From the NCBI GenBank assembly GCA_963931865.1, contig OZ007517.1, positions 9,248,038-9,312,037 of the forward strand: a stretch of 64,000 nt of DNA, written 5' to 3'. A model generated the notes under the pieces. The model saw only the letters and a list, made by a program, of their open reading frames with translations, ran no database searches and was not told the origin of the DNA. This document shows positions 5,607 to 58,700 of this stretch, one piece after another (the first letter of the stretch is position 1; the number at the start of each line of letters is the position of its first letter). The stretch is from Axinella damicornis (taxonomy: Eukaryota > Porifera > Demospongiae > Axinellida > Axinellidae). Both the position numbers and the translations under genes were made by a program.

Positions 5607-7514
5607 CTATGTGTCCCTGATGAGAGCTCTGTACTTGGACTGGTCCCATTGCTCCTCATCCTCCTCCTCCTCCTGGTCCACGTATACCCTTGCCTTTGCG
5701 GCCATCTTCTGCTTCTCTCGGGCTGCACGCTCCTCCTCTGAGAGGGAGGAGGGGTCCAGCGGGAGTGGGAGGATTTGGTGAGGGTACCTGTGAGTCGTGA
5801 ATGAGTGGGTGTGTTCATCCTCCCTCCCTCTTGTGCTGTTGACAATGCTAAAACGTCATTCCTGGTGTAGATAAATTTAGCCTCGTTCCCAGGCCTCCCA
5901 CGCGGCCTGGGAACGATCAGGCTAAGACTAAGATAAATTACGAAGAATATGGAGGGCCATTCCTCATCTTGAGTTTAACAAACTCAAGATAATGTGAGGC
6001 TCTCCCAACTTTTTCTATACTGCAACTAGCCAGGGCCAAAGTCATTACTTAGCCAGACACTGCTATATTGACATATAGTCATCTCTGTGGTTAAAGAATG
6101 GCTGCACCTACTTATGCAGTATTGTGTCTTGGCAACCAGACAATGTGTTCAGGGAGTGGTTGCCAACCTATGCCAATAATACAGCCACCAAATGGGGGAT
6201 TCGTGGACAGCATAACACAGGCAATAACAGATGGTAGGACAGTCTAGCCGCTAGCCCCTCTCCGCGGAGAGGGGATAGCGGCTAGACTGATGGTAGGAAT
6301 ACACCGTGAAAGTGGAACCGGAAAGGCCCTGGGGATGAGCTAGGCTACTGCAGTACAACCAAACAAGAATCGAGCACAGCGTTTTGTCGTCAGCTTACTG
6401 AGACACCAACCGGACAATTGCCAAGAAGACCCACTGTAAGGCCTACCGACTGCTCATTTTCAAATCAGTGGAGCTGTAGGCAGCTGCATGCTGGTCAGTA
6501 GCGCCATGTAGATAGGTGCCTGCTAGTCAGTAACCTGCATGCTGCCCTCATTATGGCTCAGTAGTCAGAGTCAGTCACAGAGATCACAGAGGTCAGTCCA
6601 GAGGTCACAGGAGTCAGTGTCACGGAGGTCAATGAGGTCTTAAGGCCTTAAGTATTTGCCGTATGCAATCACGTCACAAAATCGAGTGCATGTGATGCAG
6701 GCAGCCATGAATTTAATCAATGCGTGTGACGCAAAAAAACGGAGTTTTGTCTGCTTCTCACAATCTGCGCAGGAACTTTGAATGTATGCTAACTACTTAA
6801 TAGCGAATGTTGACATACTTGGAAGACAGCTATGTAGCTGCGAGAATTTCTGCAAGCACAATAGAGCGCACCATCTTCTTGCCACTCATGACATGGAGTT
6901 TTAATGGAAAGATTGTGGGCAGATAACAGGCTATGACGTCAATTATTGCATAAGGTCTATAGCACTGATCTAACACCTGTGGTGAATTGTGCCCATCACC
7001 TGTGGTGAAATGTGCCCCTCACCTGTGGTGAAATGTGCCCCTCACCTGTGGTGAAATGTGCTACTCACCTGTGGTGAAATGTGCCCCTCACCTGTGGTGA
7101 AATGTGCTACTCACCTGTGGTGAAATGTGCCCCTCACCTGTGGTGAAATGTGCTACTCACCTGTGGTGAAATGTGTAAGTGGACCCATCTTGGTTGACCA
7201 TCAGCACCTTATACATGCGAGGAAAGATCTTCTTTGTATTTGCAGCTGGCAGCGGCTTCCCATCAGGGCCAAGGCCCATCCTGCAGAAGGAATTATTATT
7301 CAGGGCTTGAGGAGATAATTATACATGGAACCATTGCTATATATGGCAAGATGAAGGGAGGGGGGGGGGGGGGGGGGGGGAGAGGAGGGAGGAGGGGGAG
7401 ATGAAAGAAAGACAAGAGAAGGGAGGGGGCACATAGCAGGTCTTCTCACCCCAGCGTTTGTCGCAGTAGTACTGCAAGCAACAAACGCTGGCCTGGGTAC
7501 AAGGCTAGGAGGCA

Positions 7515-7569
<55 letters not shown>

Positions 7570-7809
7570 TCATGAGAAGTTGGTCTTGTCATGTATACAT
7601 GTAAGCCATGATGTACAATGAACTCACTTTTCTAATCTCTTGGCTGCTCTTGCAGTCGGTAATTTTGATGCTGAGTACTGACGAGCAGGGACTCCCCCAC
7701 CAGCCAGTCCCACGGCACACCGACAGCAGCATGGCAGCAGTGAGGTACCAATGTGCCGTGGGGCAACGAATGCCAAGGGACGTTGAAACCACCTGGATAA
7801 GATAGCCAT
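5607..7809 (-). CDS. MRPL55: Mitochondrial ribosomal protein L55 (mL55), three exons
   Basis: Coding exons are 7809-7628, 7280-7161 and 5787-5607, giving 160 residues with exact phase joins (2 then 2). mL55 is a large-subunit mitoribosome protein of animals. The first exon encodes a typical mitochondrial import peptide: no acidic residues, arginines, MAILSRWFQRPLAFVAPRHI and then RQYSASKLPTARAAKRL. The second exon carries FPRMYKVLMVNQDGSTYTFH, and the third continues YPHQILPLPLDPSSLSEEER. These match the conserved mL55 core (YP-VLLV-QDGST, then MPIDLDTLSPEERRAR in vertebrates). The acidic tail (QEEEEDEEQWDQ) is longer than in vertebrates, whose protein is about 128 residues. It is divergent from the cystinosin gene. 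The donor of exon 2 is embedded in a 23-bp tandem repeat (see 6974-7170). Confidence 0.85.
5878..5924. repeat. Short palindrome, CTCGTTCCCAGG family
   Basis: TAGCCTCGTTCCCAGGCC is followed after a few bases by its reverse complement GGCCTGGGAACGATCAGGCTA. It is one of many copies in the window, just 3' of the start of the convergent 3' region of MRPL55 (inside its last intron). Confidence 0.75.
6241..6289. repeat. Near-perfect 49-bp hairpin
   Basis: AGTCTAGCCGCTA with CCCCTCTCC pairs with GGAGAGGGG and TAGCGGCTAGACT around a CGC centre. It lies in the second intron of MRPL55 and is unrelated in sequence to the CTCGTTCCCAGG palindromes. Confidence 0.8.
6974..7170. repeat. 23-bp minisatellite made of the MRPL55 exon 2 splice donor, nine copies
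   Basis: The plus-strand unit is CACCTGTGGTGAAATGTG plus CCCCT or CTACT. On the gene strand each unit is the end of exon 2 followed by the donor, ACCACAG|GTGAGTAGC or ACCACAG|GTGAGGGGC. The copy nearest the exon (7161) is the one that gives the correct frame into exon 3. In-frame reading through the real donor meets TGA at once. Copies with GTGAGT alternate with copies with GTGAGG. Confidence 0.9.
7360..7568. repeat. Poly-G tracts in MRPL55 intron 1, with a hairpin between them
   Basis: There is a run of 21 G at 7360-7380 and of 53 G at 7516-7568. Between them is a purine-rich stretch and a hairpin (CCCCAGCGTTTGTCGC pairing with ACAAACGCTGGCCTGGG) related to the units of the array at 28520-29340. 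On the transcribed gene strand (minus) these are poly-C tracts. Exact lengths may be uncertain because such runs are hard to sequence. Confidence 0.8.
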
Positions 7810-9084
7810 GTACCATGAGACCTACGTACAGATGTAGTAGTTACAGTGGTGTGTGGGAGGTCAGAGGTCAAGCTCCCAGCTCCAGAAACATATAAACAGG
7901 AGAAACTATTTCAATGGAAAGGGAGGGGAAATAATCTGGTTGGCCAAGGATAGTGGTGTTTATTCAACCTCAATTCAGGTCAAACCACTCCTGGTGAAGG
8001 TGCACACTCGGATCAGGTGACCCGGGTACTTGTAGCTATGCAGGGAGAGAAGATGCCCATTCCGTGGTCATGGAGGATGAAGAAGGCTGTAAAAGGAGGC
8101 CCGGGGTGGGGGGGGGGGGGGGAACACTGCTTCTACATAGCCAATTATGCAATTTGCCTATGCACTGTGGGTAATCAAGATTCAAACCAGTTGCAAGCAC
8201 AGATAGTGGACACGCGTGCACATTCAGCACCTGCCCTACCCTTGAATCCCCAGACCAATAGCCATTGCATTTTTCAGAAACTGGAGGGCAAAGAGATCAT
8301 GTGATGTCGAAATTGACCAATCAACAGGCAGGATGGTGATGTAATGCCTTCCATTTTTTCCCCCATAGTAAAAGGATGCTCTCTATCTATCTATAGCCAC
8401 TTCAGAGCTATTATAGGTAGGGGATTTCTAGACAGGTGGGGAATTTCGGACACTTTGCTCTTGCAAGTTTACTCGCAGATTGTGTCCGACAGCAACTTTC
8501 ATGCCTGCTGTATGTAGGTAGCTCTTCAGTATGGGAGAAGTCCATGTCCAGCTAGCTACAGCGGAATTACATCCACCTGTCTAGAAATCCCCGCCCTATA
8601 TCTTAGCTCCCTTCCGAGGCTCTCATATACATGTGATGACTGTGCCCTTGTGAGCAAGCTATCAAATGCAGGCTATGGCCTCATAATTTAGCATCACGTG
8701 ATCACTGCTTCAAGTGGGTTGGGTTAGGGTGGGGCTAGACTTTGACAGCAAAGGACAGACATCCCGTCAGTACTCTCAGACTCTGCATACAGCATACAAT
8801 ATTTAAACTCCCCCACAGTGACCCACTTACCTCACAGAAAGAGCTCTATGTACTTGTAGCGCTATCTCCATATGTGGATTTTAGTCTCGTTCCCAGATCC
8901 CGAACGCGCACCCGCGAGTGTGCGTTTGTGGTCTGGGAAAGAGACTGGTGGATTTCGGCTGCACTTCCGGCAGAAGTTCCGGTAGGAGGGACTGCAGTTA
9001 TTAGATGAATTCTGGTTATTTAGACATGTGACTGTGAATTTACACTCAGCATGTTAGCTTAAATTTTCTACCGTGCAGAAGAGG
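7810..9084. promoter_or_regulatory. Divergent intergenic region between MRPL55 and cystinosin
   Basis: The two start codons face away from each other across 1.27 kb, so both promoters lie here. It holds a short poly-G run near 8106-8122, a MITE at 8412-8601 and a CTCGTTCCCAG-type palindrome near 8882-8947 (TAGTCTCGTTCCCAGATCCC ... GGTCTGGGAAAGAGACTGG). No exon is evident. Confidence 0.45.
8412..8601. mobile_element. MITE with about 38-bp terminal inverted repeats
   Basis: The left arm TATAGGTAGGGGATTTCTAG with ACAGGTGGGGAATTTC is the reverse complement of the right arm (GAATTACATCCACCTGT, CTAGAAATCCCCGCCCTATA) with few mismatches. The element is about 190 bp and non-coding. Confidence 0.75.
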
Positions 9085-12000
9085 ATGGAGACTGCTCACA
9101 GTAGAGTGTGGGCCCTGTTTGCAGCTGCGTGCTTCTGTGCCGTGGGGCTGGCGGATACTAACTGCAACTATGCAGACCCAGAAGGTATGAATGAATGAAT
9201 GATTATCCATTCCACCACACTTCAGATGATAGCATAACTCATAATTTGACCAACCACATCAAGGGGTGGTCACTCATGCACCGTACTTAGAACTGCGACC
9301 GGGGTTACAGTTTGTGACCGTCCAAAAACTGCCCGTGACCGCGTGACTACGCTGCTAAACTGCCGGTGACCCTGTGACTGTCGCAAAAATCCACCGTGAC
9401 TGCGTGACGTTTTGGTAGTATACGGACTAATACAGTAAGCCACACCTACATCCGCCGTATACGGGGTCACAATCGTCGGTCGGAGCTCTAAGTACGGTGC
9501 TTATTGGCGTGACCACCCCTTGCACATCCATGTTGGTGCTTTAGTACTCCGTGTATGATGTCACTTAGTCACATGACTATCTGACCACACTCACTGTGCC
9601 TCTCTTCATTACAGAGGGGAAATATTTGCTATGCGCTGAAAGTATCTCTACTGTCGAAGTTGGTTACAACACCTCCCTACAGCTTTACATCATGTACGTT
9701 TTATCTGTGGTACATAGTCCCGTTCCCAGGCCACACGGAGTAGCCTGGCCTGGGAATGAGGCTACTGTAGTACACTGTGTGTTAATCAGACACCATGGCT
9801 ATAGGAATTATTTCACACAATTTTGTGTGGCTACTGCAATTTGAGGGCGGCACTTGAGAAAGCAATTGAGCAATCGTGTGCTACAATAGAATAACCATTC
9901 AAGCAGTGGCGTAGCCAAGGGCGGGCCTGGGCGGGCACGTGCCCGGCCAATCCTATATTGTTCTTCGCACGCGCAGTGGGAAGCCACACAGTGAACACAA
10001 CAGCGGAAGCCTATCTTACGTATTCATAGTCCTGATTATGTTTTCACAGCATAGTAAGTCAATATTCATGAATCTAAAACCCATAATCAGTTTTGTAGAG
10101 CAAACTCAGCGCTATCAATAAGGCTTCTCAGTTAACTCGCGCATCTCAGGATCGGAAGTGGATCAGAGCCCGAGCTACATCATAGGCACTGACTGACCTG
10201 TCGACAGACGTGCTGTCGATAGATGGGCCTTCACCAGAACGTCTCTCTGCAGCATCGATCCTCATACATCTGGAACGCGCAGTGCAAAGCACGAAGGTGC
10301 CACGAGAGTCCATCCTGATAACTGAAAAATGAAGGCGAAAAAATTTTTCCGCGCTTTGCGCGGACTGATTGCCACTACACACCTCTATGCACTGCCTTCG
10401 GCAGCGTGCATATCAGCCCCTGTATATAGTGCCCGCCCAATTCTACATTCCTGGCTACGCCACTGCATTCAAGGCAGAAACTTATTCGCTCACAACCTTC
10501 CATTTCTTAATTTATGAGTTGTGTTGCATGCTGTGCACCTCTTACATCCAGAGATGGTATGAGTTGTGTTGCACCTCTTACATCCAGAGATGGTATGAGT
10601 TGTGTTGCACCTCTTACATCCAGAGATGGTATGAGTTGTGTTGCACCTCTTACATCCAGAGGTATGAGTTGTGTTGCACCTCTTACATCCAGAGGTATGA
10701 GTTGTGTTGCATGTTGTCACACTGTGCACCTCTTGCATCCAGAGGCCCCTATCAGAGTAACTCCACCAACCTGACTCTCCCTCTCCTGCTCAATGTCTCT
10801 GTGGACCACGCCGGGATTATAGAGGTCCCAGACCAGGTACCCAGCTCCCTCCTCCCTCTTCTTTTCCACCCCTCCCTCCCGGCCTTCTTTCCTCCCCTTC
10901 CTCCTCCCCTCCTCCTCTTTCCCCTTCCAACCCCTCCTCTTCTCTCCCTCTCTCTCCCACTCCTCTCTCCACAGTGGAAATGTTGAGGCCCCACATACCC
11001 CCCCCCCCCCCCCCCTCCCCCCCCCCCCCCCCCTTCGTTCCCCTTACTCCCCCTCCTTCCCTTCTTCCTTCCCTCCTCTTCTCCCCCTCCTCCCTCTCCC
11101 GCCTCCTCCCTCCCTCCTCCTTCCTCCTTCTTCCACCCTCCTCCCTCCTCCCTCTACCCTCTCCCTCTTCCTCCCTCACACTCCCTTCTCCCTCACACTC
11201 CCTTCTCCCTCCTCCCTCCCTCCTCTCTCTCCCTCCCTCCCTCCCTCCCTCCCTCCCTCCCTCCCTCCCTCCCTCCCTCCCTCCCTCCCTCCCTCCCTCC
11301 CTCCCTCCCTCCCTCCCCCCCTCCCCCTCTGTACGGGATTGTGTCCTAACATTTGTGTCCTGATGTGTTCATGTTAGGAATAAGGTCAAAGTTCAGTAAT
11401 TAAAATGGCTTGTACATTGTGATCATATGCACAAATAGATTTGGATTGAGAGTGGGAACTCAACTGTCCTATCCATTCATGGCATTGGTGCTGGGCGGAC
11501 ACTCATTGGATTCCAGTACGCACACAGTGAGGGGAATGGCTCCGATGCAGGACCGATTGTGAGGTATGTGGGGCGGGGTGTAGTGGTGTGGGTGTGGGGG
11601 TGAAAGGTATGTGGGGTGGGATGTAGTGGTGTGGGTGTGGGGGTGAAAGGTATGTGGGGCAGGGGGGGGGGGGGGGGGTGTAGTGGTGTGGGTGTGGGGG
11701 TGAAAGGTATGTGGGGTGGGGCGGGGTGTAGTGGTGTGGGTGTGGGGGTGAAAGGTATGTGGGGTGGGGCGGAGTGTAGTGGTGTGGGTGTGGGGGTGAA
11801 AGGTATGTGGGGTGGGGCGGAGTGTAGTGGTGTGGGTGTGGGGGTGAAAGGTATGTGAGGTGGGGCGGGGTATAGTGGTGTGGGTGTGGGGGTGAAAGGT
11901 ATGTGGGGCGGGGTATAGTGGTGTGGGTGTGGGGGTGAAAGGTATGTGGGGCGGGGTATAGTGGTGTGGGTGTGGGGGTGAAAGGTATGTGAGGTGGGGC

Positions 12001-13566
12001 GGGGTGTAGTGATGTGGGTGTGGGGTGAAAGGTATGTGGGGTGGGGCGGGGTGTAGTGGTGTGGTTGTGGGGGTGAAAGGTATGTGGGGTGGGGTATAGT
12101 GGTGTGGGTGTGGGGGTGAAAGGTATGTGAGGTGGGGCGGGGTGTAGTGGTGTGGGTGTGGGGGTGAAAGGTATGTGAGGTGGGGCGGGGTGTAGTGATG
12201 TGGTGTGGGTGTATGGGTGAGAGGTGTGTAGGTATAGTTTATGTAGTGGTGAGGGGCGTGAGGACATGAGCTCTAAGTATAGGTTGTGGGTTATGTGTTG
12301 TGTTATGTGTAGGGAATAGTCAGACCTCCCATCTCTCTTCTTCCATCTCCCTTGTCCATTCCATTCTACGTTCTATCTCCTCCTATCACCTTCTGTCTCT
12401 CTTCTTCCTCCCTTCTCCCACCCCCTCTCTCTTCTCCCCTTCTTTCCTACCCTCTCCCTTTCTCCCCTCCCTTCTCCCTTCCCCTCTCCCTTCTTCCTCT
12501 CCCTTCTTCCTTCCCCTCTCTCTTCCTTCCTCTCCTCTCCCTGTCTCCCCTCCCCTTACCATTTTCTGTCTCCCTTCTCTCCTTCCCTCTCCCTTCTCCC
12601 TTCCCTCTCCCTTCTCCCCTCCTCTCTCCCTTCTCCCCTTCTTTCCTCCCCTCTCCCTTTCTCCCCTCCCCTTACCATTTCCTGTCTCCCTTCTCTCCTT
12701 CCCTCTCCCTTCTCCGCCCTTCTGTCTCCCCCTCTCCCTATGTACATGTGTGTGCCAGGCTTGATAAGGTGAGGTGTGAGGCATCCATTGTGCACTGGCT
12801 GCCCCTCAATATCATCATTGCCATAGTCGGATGGATCTACTTTGCAGCTTGGTCTGTCTCGTTCTACCCCCAGGTGAGCTAGCCCGAAGGAGGACACACA
12901 TCGCAACACCCATTTCAGGGCCATTTGTATTCTATTCTCCCCCCTCCCACCATTCCTCTCCCCTTCCCCTCCCCCTCTACCCTTTCCCTCCCCCTCCCCC
13001 TCCCCCATTCTCCTCCCCCTCCCCTCTCCTCCCATTCCCCTCCCCCTCCCCATTCCCCTCCCCCTCTCCCCCATTCCCCTCCCCCTCCCCATTCCCCTCC
13101 CCCCATTCCCCTCTCCCCCATTCCCCTCCCCCTCCCCCCATTCCCCTCCCCCTCTCCCGCCATTCCCCTCTCCCGCCATTCCTCTCCCCATTCCCCTCCC
13201 CCTCCCCCATTCCCCTCCCCCTCCCCCATTCCCCTCCCCCTCCCCCCTCCCCCATTCCCCTCCCCCTCCCCCCTCCCCCATTCCCCTCCCCCTCCCCCCT
13301 CCCCCATTCCCCTCCCCCCTCCCCCCCCCATTCCCCTCTTCCCTCTCCTCCCATTCCCCTCTCCTCCCATTCCCCTCCCCCTCCCCATTCCCCTCCCCCT
13401 CTCCCCCATTTCCCTCCCCCATTCTCCTCTCTCTCCCACCATTCCTCTCCCCATTCCCCCCCTCCCCCATCCCCCTCCCCCTCCACCCTCCCCCATTCCC
13501 CCCCCTCCCCCATTCCCCCCCCCCCCCCCTCCCCCTCCTCCTCCCTCCCCCATTCCCCTCCCCCAT

Positions 13567-13600
<34 letters not shown>

Positions 13601-14309
13601 ATCCCCACCCTGGGAGTGAGAGTATCAGGTGAATTTGGTATTGTTGCAACAGTTTGATTTGCACTCACCAAAATTACCCGCTATGTGGTATGGTATCGTA
13701 CATGACTCTCTACCTTGGCCATCCCTTAGATTACCCGCTATGTGGTATGGTATCGTACATGACTCTCTACCTTGGCCATCCCTTAGATTATCTTGAATTT
13801 CCAGCGTCGGAGTGTGATCGGTCTGAATTTCGACTTCCTCGCGTACAACCTCACCGGATTCCTTGCCTACTTTGTGTTCAACATGGGGCTTTACTGGATC
13901 CCGGTCATCCAGGTTAGCCATTGAGCATAGTTTGGTATTTTGAAAGGAGGCGCTGGTATAAGGGAGATTATGAAAGATGGATGAACCTTGTTCCTATTTC
14001 ACCTCTCCCTTCCTCATGCCACACCCCTTTACCGTACCATTCCTCTCCCTCTCCCTTCCTCATGCCACACCCCTTTACCATACCATTCCTCTCCCTCTCC
14101 CTTCCCTCCGTTTCCCTTTCCCCTCCTTACTCCACACTACCTCTCCGTTTCCCTTTCCCATACACCCCCTCACTCTCTCCCTTCCTCATACATGTACCCC
14201 CTCCTTCCCCATATCATCCCCTCCTCCTCTCTCTTCCCCCTCCTCCCCTTCTTCTCTCCATCTCATTACCACCCCCTTCCCCATAACACGCCCTTCCTCC
14301 CCCACCCAA

Positions 14310-14388
<79 letters not shown>

Positions 14389-17300
14389 CCCCTAGCACCA
14401 GTATTTTGACAGGCATCCGGGAGGAGTGAACCCGGTCCAGCTCAACGACGTCATCTTTGCCCTACACGCCTTCGCAGCTACAGTCTTTACCATCTTCCAA
14501 TGCTTAATCTTTGAGGTGAATATGGAGCTCCCTCACCCCCCTCCCTTCCTCCTCTCCTCTCTTCTCTCCTGTCTACTCCCTCTCCCTCCCTTTCTCCTCT
14601 CCTCTCCCTATTTTCTTCCCCTCCCTCCCTTTCTCCTCTCCTCTCTCCTCTACCCCTCCTCCTCTCCTCTCTCCTCTACCCCTCCTCCTCTCCTCTCTCC
14701 TCTCCTATCTCTATTCCTTTCCGCTTTTCTCTCTCCTACATGTGTACCTTCTACCTGCTCCTCTCTCTTGTTCTCCTCTCCTTCCTCTGTCTTCGTATCA
14801 AAACGGGCGCCCACACTCACAATTGCTCCACTATTGAATTGAGAGTTTGAGTCCCTGACCTCCAGCTCTAAATGATGACCTAGCAGTAATCCTACTTCTG
14901 CCATAGGCTACTTTTCATACAAACAAATTAAGTGTGTCACCATAGCAACCTCGATTGAAGTTCTTATAAATTGCTACTAAATATAGTGACATTACATACT
15001 TTGCAATAGGTATGCACTTAGTCTATCGAGTTAGACCGATTTTCTCTCACTGAGGAAATTGGGGGTGGGGCATAGGGAATTGGCGAGAGAAAATTGGTCT
15101 AGCTTGATAGACTAGAATGCACTCAGGATCTAGTTAGCCCGACCAACTATATAGTGAGCTTGCAGGTTGAGCCTCAGCTGCTGATCAACCCCTCTTCCTA
15201 CTTCTCTGTCCTCTTTAGCGTGGGGGCCAACGTGTGTCCTACGTCGGGGTGTTCCTGTTGATCCTCATGTGGCTCACCATCGTCATCTCCCTCTTCGTGT
15301 CGGTCGGACAGAAGCTGGCTTGGTTGGACTACCTCTACGTCCTCTCCTACGTCAAGCTAGCCGTCACCCTCGTCAAGTATGTCCCCCAGGTGAGTGGTAG
15401 GCTGATCACACACGCTGTGTATGTGCGGTACATCACACAGTGTGTGACAAATCTTTGAGGGTTAACTAGCTATTGGGTCCCCAGATGACCAATCGTTGAG
15501 GGTTAACTGGCTATTGGGTCCCCACATGACAAATCTTTGAGGGTTAACTGGGTATTGGGTCCCCAGATGACCAATCATTGAGGGTATTGGGTCCCCACAT
15601 GACAAATCTTTGAGGGTTAACTGGGTATTGGGTCCCCAGATGACCAATCGTTGAGGGTATTGAGGGTATTGGGTCCCCAGTTGACAGATCGTTGAGGTTA
15701 ACTGGGTATTGGGTCCCCAGATGACCAATTGTTGAGGGTATTGGGTCCCCAGTTGACAGATCGTTGAGGGTTAACTGGGTATTGGGTCCCCAGATGACAA
15801 ATCGTTGAGGGTTAACTGGGCATCTGCATGCACAAACAGCCTTTTGTGGAACCGCCTGAGCCAGCGTGTAGATGTACATGTATATGCATGTACTGTCTGC
15901 CTTGTTCGTCTTGGTCGAGCTGGTCAGACACCAAGGATACACAGTGAAGCCAGCAAAGATAATGTCTTGTCTTGTTTGCTACATGTATACTGCCACTTGT
16001 TGCGGAGGGCGCCCTGGGTGCTCATTTCCAGACTTCTACGCCTCCCAGATTTTAATTGCCTATAGTACATGTGCACAAATACTGTAAGCAATCAAAATCT
16101 GGTGGTGTCCTAGGAATGAGGCTAGGCCAGTCCTCGGCTAGGCATGCAGCTATAGCACGTTAATTTTATACTATGCTAGGTATCTTGGGCTAGGAATGAG
16201 ATACAAAGCTGGGATTCACACCGTTGTGATCAGCATGAATGGAGCTTTCAAATGATGTCCATTTTACTGTAGATTGAATTTTGACCCAAAATCATGAAAA
16301 ACCATGGATTATAGCCTTTGGTCGACTGCGATTTTTTGGCAAAAACGTGACCAATATTAAAAATCCTTGTTAGGACATCAGTTGAATGTTCTTTTCATGC
16401 TGATCACAATGGTACATTACCTAGCTTCATATCTCATTCAAATGCATGGATACAACATGTCTTTCTTTAGACTATGGATATACGGAGTAGGAATTATACC
16501 ACTATGCTAGGTATCTTGGGCTAGGAATGAGATACAAAGCTGGGATTCACACCGTTGTGATCAGCATGAATGGAGCTTTCAAATGATGTCCATTTTACTG
16601 TAGATTGAATTTTGACCCAAAATCATAAAAAAACCATGGACTATAGCCTTTGGTTGAGTGCGATTTTTAACAAAAATGTGACCAACATTAAAAGTCATTT
16701 TTAGCACATCACTTGAACCTTCGTTGCATGCTGATCACAATGGCAAGCTTCATATCTCCTACAACATGTCTTTATTTTTAGACAATGGATATACGGAGTA
16801 AATGCATTATGGCAAGTGTTTGAGCTAGTAATACTATGCTAGGTATCTTAAGCCAGGAAGGAGATATGAAGCTGGGGTTTGCACCATTGTGATCAGCATG
16901 AATGGAGCATTCCAATGATGTCTGTTTTGCTGTAGGTTGAATTTTGACCCAAAATCGTGAAAAAACCATGGATTATAGCCTTTGGTCGACTGCGATTTTT
17001 GACAAAAATGTGGCCGAGATTAAAAGTCACTTTAAGGACATCATTCGAAAGCCCTTTGTATGCTTACCACAATGGCGCAATCCCCAGCTTCATATCTCAT
17101 TCACATACCCATACCTAGTGCAACGTTCTCTTCAAGTCTATTCCCGATTTTGGTTTGTTGTTCCATTTTTGGCTGAAATGGCTCGCTCATCAGTCACCCT
17201 GTAGAACAGGAGTGCTGTTTGGTTTAAAATCAGCATGTCAAAATGTGCCGTAATCGGTAGGAAATGGTTTCCAAAATGTGCCAATTTTGGCACAAAAACA

Positions 17301-28061: not shown

Positions 28062-30358
28062 TCATAATTCTACAGAGTAGATGACGAAAATAAATCGCTG
28101 TTGGACTATAGTAATAGCCACAAGGTACATGACCTCGCTACCGAGTAGAATGGGAGGTTCAATGTACATGTAGTATTGTTGCAAAACGTCGTATTTCTTG
28201 TGCAACGAACCATCCCTTGTGGATAGAGCCAATACCTGTCTAGTCACATCATTGTCATGATCCACAACACTATAGACGTAGTATACATAGCCATCGGGGT
28301 GGATGGAAGGGCTAATTATTCGATTTGAAGAGGCATTCGCGGTTGCAGGTGTGATCCAACGGAGGGAGCCATTTGGAAATATGGAGAACACCTGATTGCC
28401 ACAGCTGAGTGGGAGATAGATATTCCAGTGTTATTAGAGATAGAAATGTCCAGGCAAACAGCAGCTACTTAGTCAAGCCTTACAACACTTGAAATTCTAG
28501 GATTACACAAGTCATGTACATGTAGCCTCGTTCCCAGGCCTCACCCCAGCATTTGTCGCTTGCAGTTTACGTTAGTACTGGGAACGAGGCTAGATTACAT
28601 GTAGCCTCGTTCCCAGGTCTCACCCCAGCATTTGGCTTGCAGTTTACGTTAGTACTGGGAACAAGGCTAGATTACATGTAGCCTTGTTCCCAGGTCTCAC
28701 CCCAGCATTTGGCTTGCAGTTTATGTTAGTACTGGGAACGAGGCTAGATTACATGTAGCCTCGTTCCCAGGCCTCACCCCAGCATTTGGCTTGCAGTTTA
28801 CGTTAGTACTGGGAACGAGGCTAGTATTACATGTAGCCTCGTTCCCAGGCCTCACCCAAGCATTTGTCGCTTGCAGTTTACGTTAGTACTGGGAACGAGG
28901 CTAGTATTACATGTAGCCTCGTTCCCAGGCCTCACCCCAGCATTTGGCTTGCAGTTTATGTTAGTACTGGGAACAAGGCTAGATTACATGTAGCCTCGTT
29001 CCCAGGTCTCACCCCAGCATTTGTCGCTTGCAGTTTATGTTAGTACTGGGAACGAGGCTAGTATTACATGTAGCCTCGTTCCCAGGCCTCACCCCAGCAT
29101 TTGGCTTGCAGTTTACGTTAGTACTGGGAATGAGGCTAGATTACATGTAGCCTCGTTCCCAGGTCTCACCCCAGCATTTGTCGCTTGCAGTTTATGTTAG
29201 TACTGGGAATGAGGCTAGATTACATGTAGCCTCGTTCCCAGGCCTCATACATGTAGTACTGGGAACGAGGCTAGTATTACATGTAGCCTCGTTCCCAGGC
29301 CTCATACATGTAGTACTGGGAACGAGGCTAGTATTACATGCAGGTTCAGTAACTAAGACCCACCTGTAATAGGCATATCCCTCAGCATCAACAGCAGGTC
29401 CACTTGCGAGGGACCCATCCCCTCGTGCACTGGGATCACAATAATCTTTACTGTTGAACACATGAGAACCATCGCGAGAGTGAATACCAAAGATTGACTT
29501 TCCTCTGCCAAGTATACCTCCCCAATCACTGCCAAAAACCATACCCTGGTTCGAAATTCCAAATTTAGCCGCAAAGGAAAAACCAAGGTCTGATTGCCAG
29601 TTGGTTAAGCCTGCTGAAACATCATAGGAAAACAATCTCCCTGCCGCAAGTTTAGGATTAATTTCTATGACCGGATCTGTGGGAAGAAGGACGGCCTCTT
29701 GTGTACGGACATCTTCATACTCAGAAGCAGACACTTCTGTGGGTCCAACTTTGGTTTGCATGAACAGTCCAACCTGATAGATGTTTGTTTTCTTCCACAC
29801 AATTGATCCATCTTTGAGACTGAGTGCTGCAAATGTGTCGTGGTCAAAGCCCCCCACATACACAGCATCAGCAGAAGTGGATAGACAGATTAGTGTTGCG
29901 TCGTACAGATCACTGTCCATCACCTTCCAGGCTACACTCCCATCCCCGGCATGGACCGCTACCATTTGAAAGTAAGTTGTATGATTTGTCAGGAATTGCC
30001 AGTTAGCTGCAGCAACAGCAATATTGTGCACCTTAGAGTACACAGAATTGGTTACAGAGGTGTCGAATGCATCGATTGGTGCAACCTCGACATCCCACAG
30101 GAGTGTCCCTTTGGGGCTCAGAGCTATCAAGGAGTTTTTGCTATAGTAAAACAGCATCCCTTCGTCGGATACACTAGGGGATCCCATGCCAGTACTGCCT
30201 GCGCCTGGAGACATTTCTGCAGAATAATTCCACCCTACATACGGTGGTCCCTGGTAGTTGACGAAGTTGGTGGAAGCTGAATTTCCATATTGCTGCGTCC
30301 ACGACGCTGCCAGTGGAGCAAAAACGCATAGAATTCCCAGAACTTCCACAACTTCCAT
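28062..30358 (-). CDS. Secreted PQQ/BamB-like beta-propeller protein, two exons
   Basis: Exon 1 is 30358-29364 and exon 2 is 28404-28062; phase 2 joins to give 445 residues. The start at 30358 is chosen because it opens a signal peptide (MEVVEVLGILCVFAPLAASW); the frame is open further upstream but without such a leader. The body shows repeated beta-propeller blades of the quinoprotein type: GSPSVSDEGMLFYYSKNSLIA with PKGTLLWDVE, AGDGSVAWKV, LKDGSIVWKK, SAGLTNWQSD, and in exon 2 PNGSLRWITP with SPSIHPDGYVYYVYS and DGSLHKKYDV. These resemble PQQ-like repeats (BamB family). It probably acts outside the cell or in the secretory lumen, with no enzyme activity inferred. The intron holds the palindrome array. 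It lies 540 bp downstream of the sacsin-like gene on the same strand. Confidence 0.8.
28520..29340. repeat. Tandem array of the CTCGTTCCCAGG palindrome, about ten units
   Basis: Each 80-90-bp unit reads ATTACATGTAGCCTCGTTCC, CAGGCCTCACCCCAGCATTT, an optional GTCGC, TTGCAGTTTACGTTAGTACT and GGGAACGAGGCTAG. The last two units are shortened (CCTCATACATGTAGTACTGG). Each unit can fold because its ends are complementary (AGCCTCGTTCCCAG and CTGGGAACGAGGCT). It fills most of the intron of the beta-propeller gene. Confidence 0.93.
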
Positions 30359-30901: not shown

Positions 30902-33900
30902 TTAACTGTTCACGAGTTGTCTCATCATGTCCAAGATACTTTCAGCATTTTCCTTAGCTCGCTGTGCGTCTTGTGGTGAGTAGTGGTCAGACGGAATTGT
31001 GGTACCGTCTGGGTGTCGGTTTGGAAATCGTGTGTCCAGGTAGTGGTCCTCAAGTGGGATGGTGCAACCAGCAAGGCCCTGTGTTGAGAATGGCTCCTCT
31101 GCCTGCAGTGCATATGCTAGCGGAGTGAGTTTGTGGGACTTCAAGCTCTTATCTCCTAGCCCACACTTGGCATACATGCCACCTTTCAGGGCCTTCTCTG
31201 CCACCTCGTGGGCCATGAAACACACACTAGCTGAGACCTCATGGGAGGTGGGCGTTCGGTCCAGAAGCATCACAAGAGTTCTAAAGTCAACTTCAGCTTG
31301 CTTTACCCACCTTTTCCCCTCTTCAGGATCTGGTTGTGGCCCAATTTCTTCATCAAATGGGAACTGTGCTCTAGTGAAGCCACCACCAACTCCACCACCA
31401 CCTCCTCCACCTCCTCTAGCTCTAAACTGATGCTCACTCTCCCTGTAACGTGAGTGTTGGTGAGCTGTATGGTCCCATGCTGTGAAGTAGGAGTTCCACT
31501 GTGAGTGAAATTCTGTTTGTGCATGTGGATAGGGGCCCCCTGTTGTTGGCTCGTCATCAGGGTCTACGAGGGGTAGTCCCTGTTCCAAACGTTCAATCTG
31601 GCTTTTTAGAAACTTGAACACCTCTTCAGCCAGTTCAGGTCTGTCTGGGTTTTTATCAGGATGCCACTTGAGGTAAAGCCGTCGAATTGCCTTAGTCTTT
31701 TCACTTTCAGGCAGTTTCCAGATCTCTCGGAGCTCCTTGCGAAGCTGCTTCTTTATGCTCTTGAGATCAACCTCATCATTTGCTTCATGTCTAGGCTGAC
31801 TGCCATCAGTTTCTCCTTCATATGGTACCAACACTTTACTCGTTTCCTCCCTTACTCCAGCTTTTGTTCCTCGGAGGAATTTGTAAAGATCCAACGCACT
31901 GACTTCCTTCCCTTCCTCATCGTCCTCACTGGTGTAGATTTTGTATTTCATTTCAATGTGTGTTCCAACATCATGACTGCTAACACCGTCATCATTCATC
32001 ACTGGGTGCATAACCTGTGCAAATACAAAGTAGCCTTCTCGATCTTCATAACCCACCCACTCCTCTGGGTGGAAAAGGTTGTTGATATCTTGGTCAAGAC
32101 GATGATGCCATGATTCTGGTATGGGTTTCCCAAGCTTGGGAGTAACATCTGCCTCAAAGTGAACATCTTCACTTTCAAAGTTGATTCCTTCTCTGTACAA
32201 TACAAACTGAAGCTGCTGTGGTGTTTGGACTCTTAGAAGAGTTGAAAACACACGTTGGAGTTCTGAGTAGGGTATATCAGATCCTGTGTTCTGGGACTTG
32301 ATGACATCAATCAAGTGTTCTGCTAGTGACTGGCATGCAATTGAATCCATAAACCCAAAGCTACTCTCTGAAATTTTGGAGTCTAGGTAGAAACACCAGG
32401 ATGTTTCCTCTTGTTGAAGGTAAAAGTCAACTTTTACAGACCCTATTAATGGATTAGGTTCTTTTGTTTGCAGTAGGATGTCAGTTTTGAGGTTTTGAAC
32501 AGTCACAATTCTGATGGTCTGGAAAAACTGTGTGATGATAGGTTCAAGATTCTTACAAAGTTGTTCATCGCCAGTGACATGCTTGATCACTTTTAGCATA
32601 CCCTGTGAAAGGTTGGGAAGACTAAACGTGGTCTGGAGAGATTTGGCAGCAGAAGAATTTCCGACCTCTGATTCAATGCAATGCTCGGGCACCACCTGCT
32701 TGCAACACTTTGAAAGTCCTTTGGGTCTAACACTTTCTGGGAGGCACTCACAGAATTCATCCTCGCGGATTCCCTCCCACTGGTCAGTCATGAGGTTAAG
32801 ACGGGACAGGTCAGTACCTGTAAGCTCTAGTTTGCAACCCCTGTAGTCGTACCGGTCACAGTACAGTAGGGATGGGGTGTGCACTAGTGTTCCTTCTTCA
32901 CTGGGGAGGTAGAGAGGATCCAAAGCTGCTTCGACATCTGCTACAGTGCTCTTTTTGGATACTTTCTGGTCTTTCAACAGTGTATACAGGGTCTTGATTA
33001 AACTTTGAACTACACGTTTGGTGTTGACATCAAGCGGTTGTTGGCCATGGTCAGAACAATTGAAGGCAGTTTCTAGGGCAACTCTCATGTGGCCCAGCCC
33101 AGGACTACTCTTCACTCCAATCTTCTCAAGCACAGAGTGCACAGCAAAGAATTCACCCGGGATGCGATGCAAGAAAGGGAAGTACCTTTCAGTATCTCCA
33201 GTGCTGAGAACATGGGATGGCTTTGTGAGCACCACACACCCCCTAGATGTGACAGTGTGCTGTGGTGAGGCATACACAGGAATACAAGGAAGGTCTTTCA
33301 ACGGGCTGAGTTCATCATTGGTTAAGTCTTTGATTTTTGCCAATAGGAATTCATAATGCCGCAACAAGACCTGTACCAAACCCTCCGCACCCTTTGGAGG
33401 TCTACACTCATCTGGATACTTGTCAAACAGACTAAATTCTGCAAATCGAGATCTGCAGCTGGCAATGGCAGTGATATTTTGAATCACATCAATAGGGCTG
33501 GGTTGCATGAGTACTTGCAGCTTCTCTAGGAGATCCCTCTGCCAATATTGGCAAGGAAGGTACACAACACATTTTACGGTCCAAACAATTTCTCCATGTT
33601 CAGAGAGTGCTGCTCCTTGCAGCTGAGTCATGTACACTACTCCACCACTTGTTCTGATGGTGTTGGGGACAGGATGAACTAAGTCTTGCTGGATCCAACT
33701 ACACTTTTTGAGATCTTCTGTACATACAAATGGGATCCTTGAAACTCCTGATACAAACCTGGAATCATTATACCATGCTTCATCTATTGCTTCTTGTGAG
33801 AATAGGTACTTCACCAACACTGAAGAGGCCTTTCTGGGATCAGCACTTTTACCATCAGCTGTTTCTTGGCAAAATTGAAGAAATTCTTGTTTGGTGATGG

Positions 33901-36900
33901 TCTCTCTGAATCCAATAGCACGGAAGAATTTCATCCACTTGGAATATTCATTCGTGAAACATTCCGGCAGAAAGTGAAAATGTTTAGAAAACGTTCTAAA
34001 GATTTCTTTCTCATCTGTACTGAACTCGCTTACACGTTTGAGTTGTGAACCTTCCTGACCTATACAGGGAAGATCCTTCAGTGCACCAACAAACTGTGTT
34101 GCTAGAATTTTTTTCCCAGCGTGAGACTTGGACCTGGAATCCATTATGAGCTTGTTTGGCTCAAAGAGACTGTCTCTGATGTGTTGTAGGTGCTTGAGTC
34201 TCTCAGTTACACTCAGGAGGGTAAAACCAGGAAAAATGTATTTGATGTACAGGTCTTCCTCATGTATTGCATCGATCCCCAGATTGGATGGCCCAAGCTT
34301 TGCCCATGCACCTATGTCATCCAGAAACACAACATTTATGCCACTCACCCACTTGGAGTAGCCAACTTTGCAAGCATACCAGGGCCAAATGAATACTGTC
34401 TTTCCAGTGACGGAAGTCAGACTGCCTTCAGTTGTGAGAAACAATGGGAGGGCTTTCACACTTGTTCGATATTCCTCTGGGCACACTGGAAATTGGAAAT
34501 TTATATTCTGCAAGTATGCTATCAGAATGTCAGCATTATCAATTGTGATGGACGAAGAGATACTGCTTTGTTGGTGGAGGTGGTACAAGTTGGTCAGTAT
34601 GCGCTTATGATCGCTCAGCTTTGGGCAGTAACTTTGCACAGCACCTTGATTCACCACTATGTCAGTTGCTAGAAAGGGCATTCCTAGGTGATCCAACACT
34701 TTGCAGACTGCAGAGAAATGGTTGCTTATTGGTGAGAGAGAATTTGGGTCAGAAGGTGGTCGAACAATTGGGAGAAGTAAGTTTGTCGACGAGAACAACT
34801 GGTTATTGGTGCTGGGTAGCAAAGCCCAGCGCTTTAGTATGTTCCCCAAATGTGTGTAGAATGTTTGGTCATTGGAAAGGCAGGCCCATAGTGCGTTGAG
34901 CATGGACTTGGACATGTGCTTATCTGCAGTGAGCACATGTGAGGCTTGTAGTGCAAGTGGAAGAGCTTTGGACAAGATGTCTTCAACTACTACAGAGCTA
35001 CCAAAGCCTGAAGAAAAGAAGTAGCTACTGCTATACTTCACATCCAGGAGTTCTGGGTGTAGAAACTTCTCAAAGCTTTGGGGGAAGAGTTGTGAATATG
35101 CTGAGGAAATGACTTTATTCCCTTCATCAAAGTTTCTGAGCTGGCCATCTGCAGTGAGGAGGAGTGGGTAGCCAAATGGAGGCTTGGGAAATTGAAATTC
35201 TTCAGTGGCTGTTGTTTGACAAGTTGAGAGAAGGTACTGACTTAATGTTTTGAAAGTTTTGTAGCCAAAAGGAGGCTTTGGAAACTCCTCAGTGGCCGAC
35301 ACTTCACAAGGCAAGAGAAGGTACTGGCTGAATGTTTTGAAAGCTGCAACTGAACGAAAAGCAGTTGCTTCAACAGCACATGGGAATTCATCAGTTGGAC
35401 TGACCTGTTCACTGAAGCGTGTATAATAATCATACACAGAAGAGGGGGAAGTTTCAGGCAGGTCACACTCTACAGTGTGGAAGTGGTTCCTGATTCTCAG
35501 TGGTGCACAAGTAATTTTCATCCCAATACGTTCCAGGATGGGCTTAAGTGGTGCATCATCATGGTCAAGCCTCATTGCCCAGAAATAAATCTGAAAACGT
35601 GGGCATTCTGAGTTTTCCAACAGGTGCCACATTGCTGTGTATTGTACATCCGGCTCTGAGGCCACTTGCTTCACTGAAGCCACCACAGTGGGATTTGAAG
35701 GAGTAGATTCAATTGTTGCAAGAACACTTGCATTGTTGTTAGCTAGCTTTCTGTAGACATCTTCTGCCAGTCTGCGCCACGGCCCCTCTGGAACTATCTT
35801 GTCCCCCTCAGGTCCCTTAGACCAGTTTGGGAAGACACTGTAGTAGCACAAACTATCAGTTCGGAGCTTGCTCAGATCACTGTAGGGCCCTGACTGGATG
35901 TAATGGCTGTGGGCTTCTGTTAAGAAATTGGCATAAGAGGAAGATATTGCTTTGAGAAGGTTCTCATTCCACCTTGATTTGTCATCAGCCTCATCTGGAA
36001 CTGTGGACGGCCAGAGGTTCCTGCGAGAAGCGTCAAGGATGAAGTGAGCATTCACATGCACTGGAAGTTTGCAACTTACGGGAAGAGGAAGAAAGCAAAA
36101 TACATCACCATGGAAACTCCTGAGTTGACTTAGTGAGCCAAGAGGTGCAGCTATGCCATGTTTGGGCTTGACCTGGGAGATGTATTTCCAAGTTTGTTGC
36201 TTATCTTCCAAATCACCAACACCCTGTTGAATGAGCCACTGTTCTGTCTTCTGTTTGTCTCCTTTCTGCTGCATGTGAGCTTTTGAAGCTGGACGGAGGG
36301 TTTCAGAGATTGTGAGAGGGTATCGAACTACACAAGGCTCACTCCCTCTTTCTTCTTTGAAGGCTGCAATCTTCTCATGAAGATGAGCACGACTTTGTTG
36401 GGCTGATTTATTGATACACACCTCAAAGCAGTGCTCTAATGCCAACGTGGGTGCAGATGTATGTTGGACCACTGGTGATATCTTAGACTGTTCAATGACA
36501 AAAAAATGCAATTCTGTTACATGGTTCAAAAATAGTAATGCCTGCTTCATTTTTGGAGCCCACTGATTAAGGTAATGTTGCATTCTATCAGCTGTAAGTG
36601 GATCACTTGTGTAGCTGACACTGTGGTCTACAATCTTTGAGGACCTCATCAGTTCACTCGTGTGTCTGAGAGGGAAACGAAAGAGGGAGCCACCCAGCAA
36701 CTCTTCTGGACAGTCTTTGAGTCCACCTCGCAGATAGGCTGATTTCAGGTCAGGAAAATCATCCCAAAAGCCACGGTCCAGATCATCAAATCTTCTTCCC
36801 GGCATTTCTGAAGTGGCTTCAGGGACAAATCGACAGTGAGGATCCATAATGCAGAGTGTCTCTCCACCCGTGATGAAACTGGGACAGTCTGTGAGATGGT

Positions 36901-53887: not shown

Positions 53888-53931
<44 letters not shown>
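53888..53931. repeat. Poly-G run of 44 bases
   Basis: An uninterrupted G homopolymer on the plus strand. The true length may be collapsed or approximate. Confidence 0.85.
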
Positions 53932-55745: not shown

Positions 55746-58700
55746 ATGAGTGAGCCTTTGACTGGGGAGCACTTCGGACAGAGACGACCTCCGTTGTCTG
55801 TGACAATAAAGGCGATTCTTGAGAGATACCCAGATGGCCAGATCTTCAAGGTAGCTAGCTAGCTAGCTAGCTCAGTACTAGTAGCTACACAATATAAACA
55901 TACAAGGTTCTGTGTTTGCTTTCGCCAGCCTCGCGTCGCCAGTCTCTGAGGGTGAGCGAAGAATCTGGCAAAGCGAGACTGATAGCTTTGTACATCGTAC
56001 GGGAGCGGGGCGCAAATCCTAATTGCACTTTGCCTGCTTAATTTTCCAGGAGATTATCCAGAATGCGGACGATGCTGGGGCGAAGACGGTGAAGTTTTAC
56101 CTCGACAGCAGGCAGCACGGGAGGACATCGCTCGTAGATCCCGCCTTGGCACCCTTCCAGGGACCTGCGCTGTTGGCCTACAATGATGCGCAGTTCACCG
56201 CTGAGGACTGGGAGGGCATACAGAACTTGCAGCGTAGCGTCAAGGCAGAGGATCCCTTCAAAGTGGGGAAATTCGGAATTGGATTCAACTCCGTCTACCA
56301 CATCACAGGTAACAAGTTTCATGAATCCAAGCGATCAAATCGCATCTGCTATTTAGTCGGCTTGGCCCAAGTTTTTGCATGCCTCAGGCTCTGCAGCAGG
56401 AACTCATTTTGAACGTTAATTTCACGCATGTGTATGGCTGGTGACACCACGGTACCATCTAGTCTCGGAACCAGACTCCCAACCCAAAGGGGGAGAGGGA
56501 GTCTGGTACAGTTGCGTACAGAAAGCCATTATGGGCTACAGCTTGCATGAGGATTCCTAAGTGCCAATTAAAGGTGATCCAGTGGCTCTCAAGGAGAATA
56601 ATTGAGTTACTATCAATTCACCACACTCAGCCACCTGTGACATGTCACAACCCAATTACATAGCAATCAACCAATCTGATTCATGCCACCGAAATTCCGT
56701 GACTGCAAAATTGACATGTATGCAAATTGCCATGTATGCAACTGTACCAGACTCCCCCTCCCCCTTTGGTTTGGGAGTCTGGTTCCGGGACTAGGTACCA
56801 TCATGAATTGTCACAAAGGTACGTAAGTGCTCTAGAAATATAATTATTTTTCCAGATGACGCAATTAATTGCGCACGCAAGATTAAATACGTTTCAGAAA
56901 AATTGCTTAATGCGACGCATAATTAGAAATTGTTGGAAGAGTGCGTGTGCGAGCGCTATGGCTGCTAAAATCATCCGTACAGCCTTCTTTACACATACAG
57001 AAGGACCTCTGCTGATTCGTTGGACTTCGAGTGCAGAGCAACTCAAGCGGGGATCGCGGAGACCTCGAAAGGTAGTAGAGTCCATTGATTTTGCAAGTAG
57101 CGACAGCGAGCACTCGAAGGATCCACCATCTCCACCGTGCCAGATGACATCGGAAAATAATTATAGCATGTAGCGGTAGTGGTATCATGATTGACAGTCA
57201 ACACCAGAAAGACTCGCTCTTGGACACCTGTTGCAGCTGGGTAAATTTAAATATTGATGTTTGATGCTTTAGTGTCAATTTGGGTAGCTACATGTACATG
57301 GAAAACAAAGCACACTTCAGCCCTTTCGTCTTCTATTGCTTCATACAATAATATCACTAAGTGCAGGCAGACTAGTCACCCTGTTCATTGGCTGTTTAGA
57401 GCACATCAATTGTGTCCTGGTGTAAACAGAAGCTGACAAATCACATTTGTGGTGAGTCATGTGACACACTTATGTAATTACTCCTGGGCACTCAACCACT
57501 GAGAAGCCCAACCATTGAGGAACCCAAGCCTACCCCATGAATTAGCCTCACCATCCGAGATCTTACAGGATCTTGCTCAGGATAGAAAAGAGTGAAGATT
57601 CGAAGCAGCAGTACATACAACTAGCTATGTGTATGTTTTTAGTGAATTGCTCTACTGCAAGCAACTGCAAACCTACCCCCCTGAAGTTGCCTCACCGTCC
57701 GAGATCTTACAGGATCTTGCTCAAGATAGAAATGAGTGAAGATCTTGGTACTCATTTCCTGCATCAGTATGACACAAATGTTTATCCCCTTTGAGATTGG
57801 GCTAGCTACTACAAGACCGACTGTGCTAGTGTAAGTCACTGACTGTCGACCGCCCTGTGAACTCACCGTCATAACTTCTGTTTGTGCTAACTACCATGCA
57901 ACAAGCTACATATACTGAGTTATAGTATGCTTATTGAACTATACTATATACCTGCATGCTGCACACCATTTGGATGGTTGCCAGTTGCTCCAATTCCCAA
58001 GGCCATTTTCATGAATTTGTCCACTAGCGGCACGTCAACCAGCTTACAATATTTTAATGTGTGTCTGTGTGTGTGTGTGTGACGGAAGTGGGATGTTCGT
58101 GGGGCGGGACTATAGACTAGTGTCATATTTCATACTGAAATACTGGCGGTGGGAACGGCCTGGGAACCATGTAGGCTAGGGTGATAGTAAGACTCATAAT
58201 ACATGCCAGCCATTTCTCACGCATATTTGCAAAATTGTTGAGGAACAACCCAATTTCTGTGACGCGCGACTTCGTACTTCAATTTACTGGACCTCAACTC
58301 TGCGAAGAGAATGTTTGAGAACATTGGGCATGGGCTGGAACGAACAGCTCGGATGCAGTCGGGGAGCAGTAGTCGAAGCGGACGCAATCGGGGAGCAGCA
58401 GTTGAAGCTGATGCAATCGGGGAGCAGCAGTTGAAGCGAACACAATCGGGGAGCAGCAGCCGAAGCGGATGCAATCGGGGAGCAGTTTAAGGGGACGCAA
58501 TCACGTATTGGGCACGCAGGGAGCAGCAGTTGAAGCTGGCGTCAGCAGGTGAAGCAGATGCAATCGGGGAGCAGCAGCTGAACCGGACGCAATCGGGGAG
58601 CAGCAGCTGAAGCGGACGCAAACGGGAAGCAGCAGTTGATGTGGCAATTGGGAAGCAGCACTGAGCTCTGCACAGAGAGCTATCCAGCACCGGATTACTC

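Follow-up and report, generated by a model that had tools for sequence, protein, structure and literature searches.

Why do tandem repeats lie at, and even across, the boundaries of exons and introns in two neighbouring genes of a sponge? The window, the whole 64,000-nucleotide stretch of Axinella damicornis DNA analysed here, carries MRPL55 on the minus strand and cystinosin on the plus strand, and the predicted models of both genes are supported by homology:

9085..15389, plus strand: cystinosin exons 1-8, placed by homology (the gene runs on past exon 8)
9085-9184, 9615-9693, 10743-10836 and 11439-11563, plus strand: cystinosin exons 1-4
12759-12873, 13787-13912, 14396-14515 and 15219-15389, plus strand: cystinosin exons 5-8
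7161..7280, minus strand: MRPL55 exon 2, placed by mL55 homology
5607..5787, minus strand: MRPL55 exon 3, the last, placed by mL55 homology

Spliced together, cystinosin exons 1-8 give an open frame of 310 aa that matches human cystinosin (E 1.1e-61); seven top relatives, which include two named sponges, match it as well. The mL55 match covers MRPL55 exons 2-3 including their junction and begins downstream of a putative exon 1, and a candidate start codon at 7732 has no in-frame join to exon 2.

The first-pass annotation had proposed that at four introns of these genes the repeat unit begins or ends exactly at a splice site, so that the splice signal is itself multiplied. Multiplied signals are indeed present in both genes, in four introns with tandem arrays that include the splice site:

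6974..7175, minus strand: array at the MRPL55 intron 2 donor (TRF, 23 bp x 8.8; about 9 copies)
10534..10744, plus strand: array at the cystinosin intron 2 acceptor, a 36-bp unit with CATCCAG (exon start 10743)
11562..12209, plus strand: array at the cystinosin intron 4 donor, a 43-48-bp G-rich unit in about 14 copies (exon end 11563)
13673..13790, plus strand: 57-bp tandem duplication at the cystinosin intron 5 acceptor (57 bp x 2.1, 100% matches; exon start 13787)

Donors (MRPL55 intron 2, cystinosin intron 4) and acceptors (cystinosin introns 2 and 5) are both affected. The proposed exactness holds only in part. Each 23-bp MRPL55 unit straddles the junction, with 15 exonic and 8 intronic bases, and the frame-keeping donor is the copy nearest the exon (exon end 7161, intron start 7160). 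For cystinosin intron 2, the TRF row (10534-10711, 36 bp x 5.1) ends 31 bp before the acceptor, and the real acceptor, read by eye, sits in a further degenerate last copy. The intron 4 unit carries AG|GTATGTGG. TRF gives two rows for its array: one of period 43 opens at 11562 and takes in the last 2 nt of the exon, and a higher-scoring one (period 48 x 13.6) opens at 11568, 4 nt into the intron. The two copies at intron 5 are identical, a 4-nt ATTA is common to both breakpoints, and the duplication extends 4 nt into the exon. The exonic part of the intron 4 and intron 5 arrays is at most 2-4 nt.

The initial suggestion that no named system of this kind exists was mistaken. In amphioxus, tandem arrays spanning splice sites are called mirages, with units of 10-72 bp in Adh3 and 150-160 bp in BflGb6 and a similar case in PGBD5 (PMC3087553 and PMC3902484); RT-PCR suggests that splicing is undisturbed (PMC3087553), and somatic instability has been reported for the Adh3 mirage. 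As in those mirages, the sponge units hold a 5´ or 3´ splice site, repeat number differs between homologous copies, and several genes of one genome are affected (PMC3087553, PMC3902484). MRPL55, where the exon-intron boundary lies inside the repeat unit, is the clearest of the four introns. The sponge case differs in its host, in involving two adjacent genes and in having near-empty paralogous sites. The variable internal tandem repeats of human segmental duplications also involve minisatellite differences between recent paralogues, sometimes at exon-intron boundaries, but half of them lie in coding sequence, whereas the sponge arrays lie in introns and at junctions (PMC2812944). An earthworm metallothionein case (PMC12783039) was judged to be a different phenomenon, and a search of a plasmid collection gave no match. 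The sponge arrays belong to the mirage kind already described, and a limited literature search turned up no previous example from the phylum. Mirages accordingly extend from amphioxus to a sponge and need not be a cephalochordate oddity.

A duplicate of this segment on contig C4, set against the window's own contig, C13, provides paired views of junctions with and without arrays. The C4 copy of cystinosin keeps an open frame through exons 1-8, with 305/310 aa identical, and both paralogues have the gene's introns. On C4, introns 2 and 5 have a single acceptor copy and no array. At the intron 4 donor, where TRF reports no array, about 1.5 degenerate copies can be made out by eye. Of the 7 arrays in the C4 cystinosin introns, none has a splice site within 5 bp. 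MRPL55 has 9 copies on both contigs, but the variants are ordered differently. Since C4 is single or near-single at three of the four sites, those sites have changed since the copies separated, and the copy-number instability characteristic of mirages is seen there between the paralogues. The direction of the change we infer rather than observe.

If every unit carries a splice signal, which copy is used? All 27 of the alternative copies tested, these being copies that match the exact motif, would lead to a premature stop, so only the copy nearest the exon keeps the protein, and that copy is presumably the one used. These arrays would allow a clean test of how the spliceosome chooses the exon-nearest among many near-identical sites. 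The same stops, with no usable product from any of the 27, argue against the earlier proposal that selection for redundant splice signals maintains the extra copies. The AG|GT core is kept in 9/9 MRPL55 copies, as such selection would predict, although copies at the other sites were found by that very motif; C4 cystinosin, moreover, keeps its open frame while lacking three of the arrays. We regard selection of this kind as very improbable.

That chance placement is unlikely, as had also been argued, holds only weakly. TRF arrays take up 41% of the intron bases of cystinosin and MRPL55, and in a local test at that coverage, with the MRPL55 intron 1 borders uncertain and the cystinosin introns after exon 8 left out, 3 arrays touched a junction within 5 bp where 1.11 were expected (P 0.09). 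When the intron 2 array was lengthened by hand and the count restricted to minisatellites, the result was 4/11 against 0.77 (P 0.005). This local excess is modest, at a locus that was chosen post hoc. Four arrays in two adjacent genes do exceed local null models, as would be expected if a local process primed at splice sites or at R-loops on nascent transcripts made them, and the coding strand of the intron 4 array shows a strong G skew (0.94). However, skew is slight or absent in the other three (-0.02, 0.10 and -0.19), which leaves one strongly skewed array in four; the C4 cystinosin introns have no array within 5 bp of a junction, and in the wider sample described below minisatellites are not in excess at the 436 predicted sites. 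Priming of this sort is not supported, and we think it most unlikely.

We consider it probable instead that these are mirage-type arrays, in which duplications that cross a junction are tolerated and then expand like any other minisatellite. The mechanism of duplication, as we infer it, would run as follows. In a minisatellite-rich sponge genome, some tandem duplications would by chance span an exon-intron junction. They would be tolerated because the exon-nearest splice-site copy would still yield the correct mRNA, the remaining copies being plain intron, and arrays seeded in this way would go on to expand and contract as minisatellites do. The coding exon bars the copies from spreading further, which makes the array edges seem anchored; where an array is of low complexity, the GT-like or CT-rich character of the splice signals adds to this impression. 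One calculation counts against tolerance: a simple tolerated-duplication model predicts 0.93 junction arrays where 4 were seen (P 0.009, with the locus again post hoc).

To what extent does the pattern reach beyond these two genes? The wider sample comprised 314 kb (the window, flanking C13, and contigs C4, C12 and C1), and TRF arrays cover 8% of C13 and 6-15% across the four sampled contigs. The count at 436 predicted splice sites left out period-1 arrays and any exon shorter than 45 bp or scoring below the limit; dropping period 1 reduced 172 array loci to 159, of which 121 have a period of 9 or more. In these 314 kb minisatellites were not in excess at junctions: they touched 6 of the 436 sites, against 6.44 expected. 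Once microsatellites (period 2 or more) are included, 15 sites are found where 8.29 were expected (P 0.016), or 9 against 4.13 under a stricter limit (P 0.021); the excess appears only with these microsatellites, as GT arrays at donors and CT-rich arrays at acceptors. The sites came from a lower-order gene finder, run with one setting chosen from four that were tried, and false predicted exons dilute the test. It placed 6/8 cystinosin exons exactly, which is no independent check because cystinosin splice sites seeded its splice-site models. It replaced a first, weaker finder that over-predicted and then recovered 3/8 cystinosin exons (mode B). With that first finder in mode B, 4/212 sites were 5 bp or less from an array edge and 1 was inside an array at periods of 9 or more (random non-coding controls, 1.2% and 9.3%), and 11/212 and 1 for all periods above 1 (controls, 1.7% and 11.3%); mode A gave 4/214 and 11/214 near an edge, each with 1 inside. 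Because only 1/212 sites lay inside an array, against 9-11% of random non-coding positions, arrays of whole junctions may occur less often than neutral tolerance allows, or may have been missed by the finder.

The microsatellite excess raises the possibility, tentative and compatible with tolerated duplication, that splice signals themselves seed arrays, polypyrimidine tracts and donor GT being prone to slippage. Nup155 fits this idea. It was picked for having a site that touched an array in the 436-site count, and, over 16 exons and 30 sites (predicted exons lacking clear homology dropped, single borders as the gene finder set them), 5 sites touch arrays, microsatellites included, where 0.79 are expected (P 0.001); CT-rich arrays adjoin three acceptors and GT arrays two donors. 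The two short donor arrays noted in the first-pass annotation are also present:

9185..9202, plus strand: short tetranucleotide array GTATGAATGAATGAATGA at the cystinosin intron 1 donor
55851..55870, plus strand: CTAG array GTAGCTAGCTAGCTAGCTAG at the probable donor of a sacsin-like gene

The position 55851 is taken as a donor because the sacsin-like frame is continuous. Both arrays are missing in the paralogues, the C4 counterpart of the first reading GTATATATGATT and the sacsin-like paralogue lying at about 50354 on the minus strand. Seeding nevertheless leaves out the complex 23-, 36- and 57-bp units, which are not in excess in the sample, and a gene finder may prefer GT-rich donors and CT-rich acceptors. 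More speculative, and rather doubtful, is the general form of the idea, that in repeat-rich animal genomes splice junctions seed GT arrays from GT donors, CT arrays from polypyrimidine tracts and occasionally a duplication of the whole junction. If this were true, amphioxus and sponge mirages would be two faces of one process that continually makes candidate splice sites.

The arrays also bear on whether such repeats feed alternative splicing or intron gain. Intron gain by tandem duplication is documented for potato RdRp and fission yeast, with duplicated splice signals as here (PMC4974935), but the sponge cystinosin introns exist in both paralogues and no new intron is seen. The MRPL55 array could itself mark a gain in which a piece of exon containing AGGT was duplicated in tandem (the Rogers model), given that its unit contains the exonic CACAG|GT. 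Against this, the array sits only at the donor end of the 1.37-kb intron 2, the unit was not found to recur at the other end, and the likeness of the 3´ end to the unit is equalled by ~10% of 713 CAG|GT contexts; such an origin has very little probability in our view. As a separate observation, an array on C12 resembles the MRPL55 unit, with a 25-bp unit and 70-75% identity.

All four minisatellites that the first-pass annotation had placed on splice junctions of MRPL55 and cystinosin were detected by TRF, and the two short donor arrays it named were found in the sequence (window at G000:C13:9248038-9312037; genome 226 Mb, 120 contigs). Spliced cystinosin exons 1-8 give a single open frame of 310 aa that matches human cystinosin (E 1.1e-61) and has sponges as its nearest named relatives (Halichondria panicea, 59%; Amphimedon, 55%), which points to a demosponge genome. 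Aligned to seven top relatives, including two named sponges, cystinosin shows no long gap or insertion at the array-bearing junctions. MRPL55 exons 2 and 3 encode Pfam Mitoc_L55, and the mL55 match (E 1.1e-10) spans their junction.

The 23-bp unit at the MRPL55 intron 2 donor combines 15 exonic bases (CACATTTCACCACAG) with 8 intronic bases (GTGAGTAG), and the first of its nine copies is the exon end. TRF gives two starts for the array at the cystinosin intron 4 donor: 2 nt before the junction in one row, and 4 nt past it in a second, higher-scoring row. The 57-bp duplication at the intron 5 acceptor is exact, reaches 4 nt into the exon and has ATTA at each of its breakpoints. For intron 2, TRF places the array edge 31 bp before the acceptor, which is in a last, degenerate copy. 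The first-pass annotation knew of no named system for such arrays; in amphioxus, tandem repeats holding an exon-intron border are called mirages (PMC3087553, PMC3902484), and the arrays described here are a further case of this known phenomenon. Similar repeats are reported for PGBD5 in PMC3902484, where Adh and TnC are also cited; human paralogues are treated in PMC2812944, and intron gain in PMC4974935. We recognized no sponge case in the titles and abstract openings of the matches listed, in a search that covered few subscription journals.

A second copy of the locus offers a view of array history. C4:8308001-8348000, on another contig, contains a duplicate of window 3095-28098, with long aligned blocks mostly 88-97% alike; this inter-contig segmental duplication, of at least 25 kb, pairs that part of the window with G000:C4:8308001-8329982. 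Cystinosin exons 1-8 form an open frame on C4 as on C13, with 305/310 amino acids identical and 10 of 930 coding bases different. On C4, intron 2 is without the array (399 bp vs 1049 on C13), intron 5 has a single copy of the 57-bp unit, and the intron 4 donor has about 1.5 degenerate unit copies; of the 7 arrays in the C4 cystinosin introns, none comes within 5 bp of a splice site, and the two closest are 10 and 12 bp away. These single or near-single copies mean that three of the four arrays were gained or expanded on C13 after the copies separated, or contracted on C4. For the 57-bp duplication, the identity of its two copies speaks for recent gain. The MRPL55 array has nine copies on each contig, in different variant order. 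The short array at the inferred sacsin-like donor is absent from its paralogue within the window.

We favor a model in which duplication across a junction is tolerated and is followed by ordinary minisatellite turnover; given the microhomology at its breakpoints, the 57-bp duplication may have arisen by slippage or end-joining. Priming at R-loops, suggested earlier, is disfavored, as G skew fits one of the four arrays. Selection for redundant splice signals had also been proposed. Use of any other copy found by exact motif would produce a premature stop (cystinosin intron 2, 5/5; intron 4, 13/13; intron 5, 1/1; MRPL55, 8/8), and redundancy therefore cannot rescue the protein. For both genes to work, splicing must mainly use the copy closest to the exon.

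Because the locus had been chosen by the first-pass annotation, all local P values are post hoc: with random placement of 14 arrays in the 9 introns considered from the two genes (2935 of 7095 bp covered), 3 were observed within 5 bp of a junction vs 1.11 expected (P 0.09), 4 vs 1.64 within 15 bp (P 0.07), and 6 vs 2.47 within 31 bp (P 0.02). For minisatellites only, with the intron 2 array hand-extended, 4 of 11 lie at a junction vs 0.77 expected (P 0.005); tolerated junction-crossing duplication predicts 0.93 (P for 4 or more, 0.009).

The wider sample covered 314 kb and 172 array loci, in which a self-trained gene finder predicted 228 exons and 436 splice sites. The finder is crude (6/8 cystinosin exons exact, their splice sites among its own seeds), and the 436-site test left two of the four focal arrays uncounted. 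Arrays of all periods above 1 touch 15 sites vs 8.29 expected (P 0.016; 9 vs 4.13 under a stricter score limit, P 0.021). For periods of 9 or more the counts are 6 vs 6.44 (P 0.63), 4 vs 3.18 under the stricter limit (P 0.40) and 8 vs 7.95 under a laxer one (P 0.53). With an earlier, weaker finder, 1/212 predicted sites fell inside an array vs 9-11% of random positions. Stretches preceding predicted acceptors are at least 75% CT in 16/216 cases and at least 75% GA in 0/216; those following predicted donors are at least 40% G in 18/218 and at least 40% C in 10/218. Nup155, a gene in this sample, is supported by homology:

C13 sample 2483-24186, left of the window, minus strand: Nup155 (E 9.3e-185)

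Against an expectation of 0.79, 5 of its 30 splice sites adjoin arrays (P 0.001). Each of these arrays is low-complexity; three acceptors have a CT-rich one and two donors a GT one. The arrays starting at predicted donors hold 47 and 83 GT copies, and two arrays of roughly 100 CCCT copies stop 4-5 bp short of acceptors; for periods of 9 or more, 1 was observed vs 0.5 expected (P 0.39). An excess is thus likely for arrays resembling the splice signal itself; none was seen for complex-unit minisatellites, either at the 436 predicted sites or in Nup155.

Other features were noted in and near the window. A nearly perfect 50-bp inverted repeat lies in MRPL55 intron 2 (window 6240-6289), and pure G runs occupy 7516-7568 (53 bases) and 53888-53931 (44 bases). 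An intronless sacsin-like ORF of 4358 aa (30902-43978, minus strand) has SACS x3, HEPN and DnaJ (below cut-off) domains; its surroundings in the window and flanking C13 hold four more open frames (9-13 kb), at least one of them similar to it by eye. A short palindrome-like element and its reverse, also found by eye, are scattered and form one tandem array:

Window 28517-29340; near 5890-5940, 8884-8945 and 9717-9765: CCTCGTTCCCAGGC element
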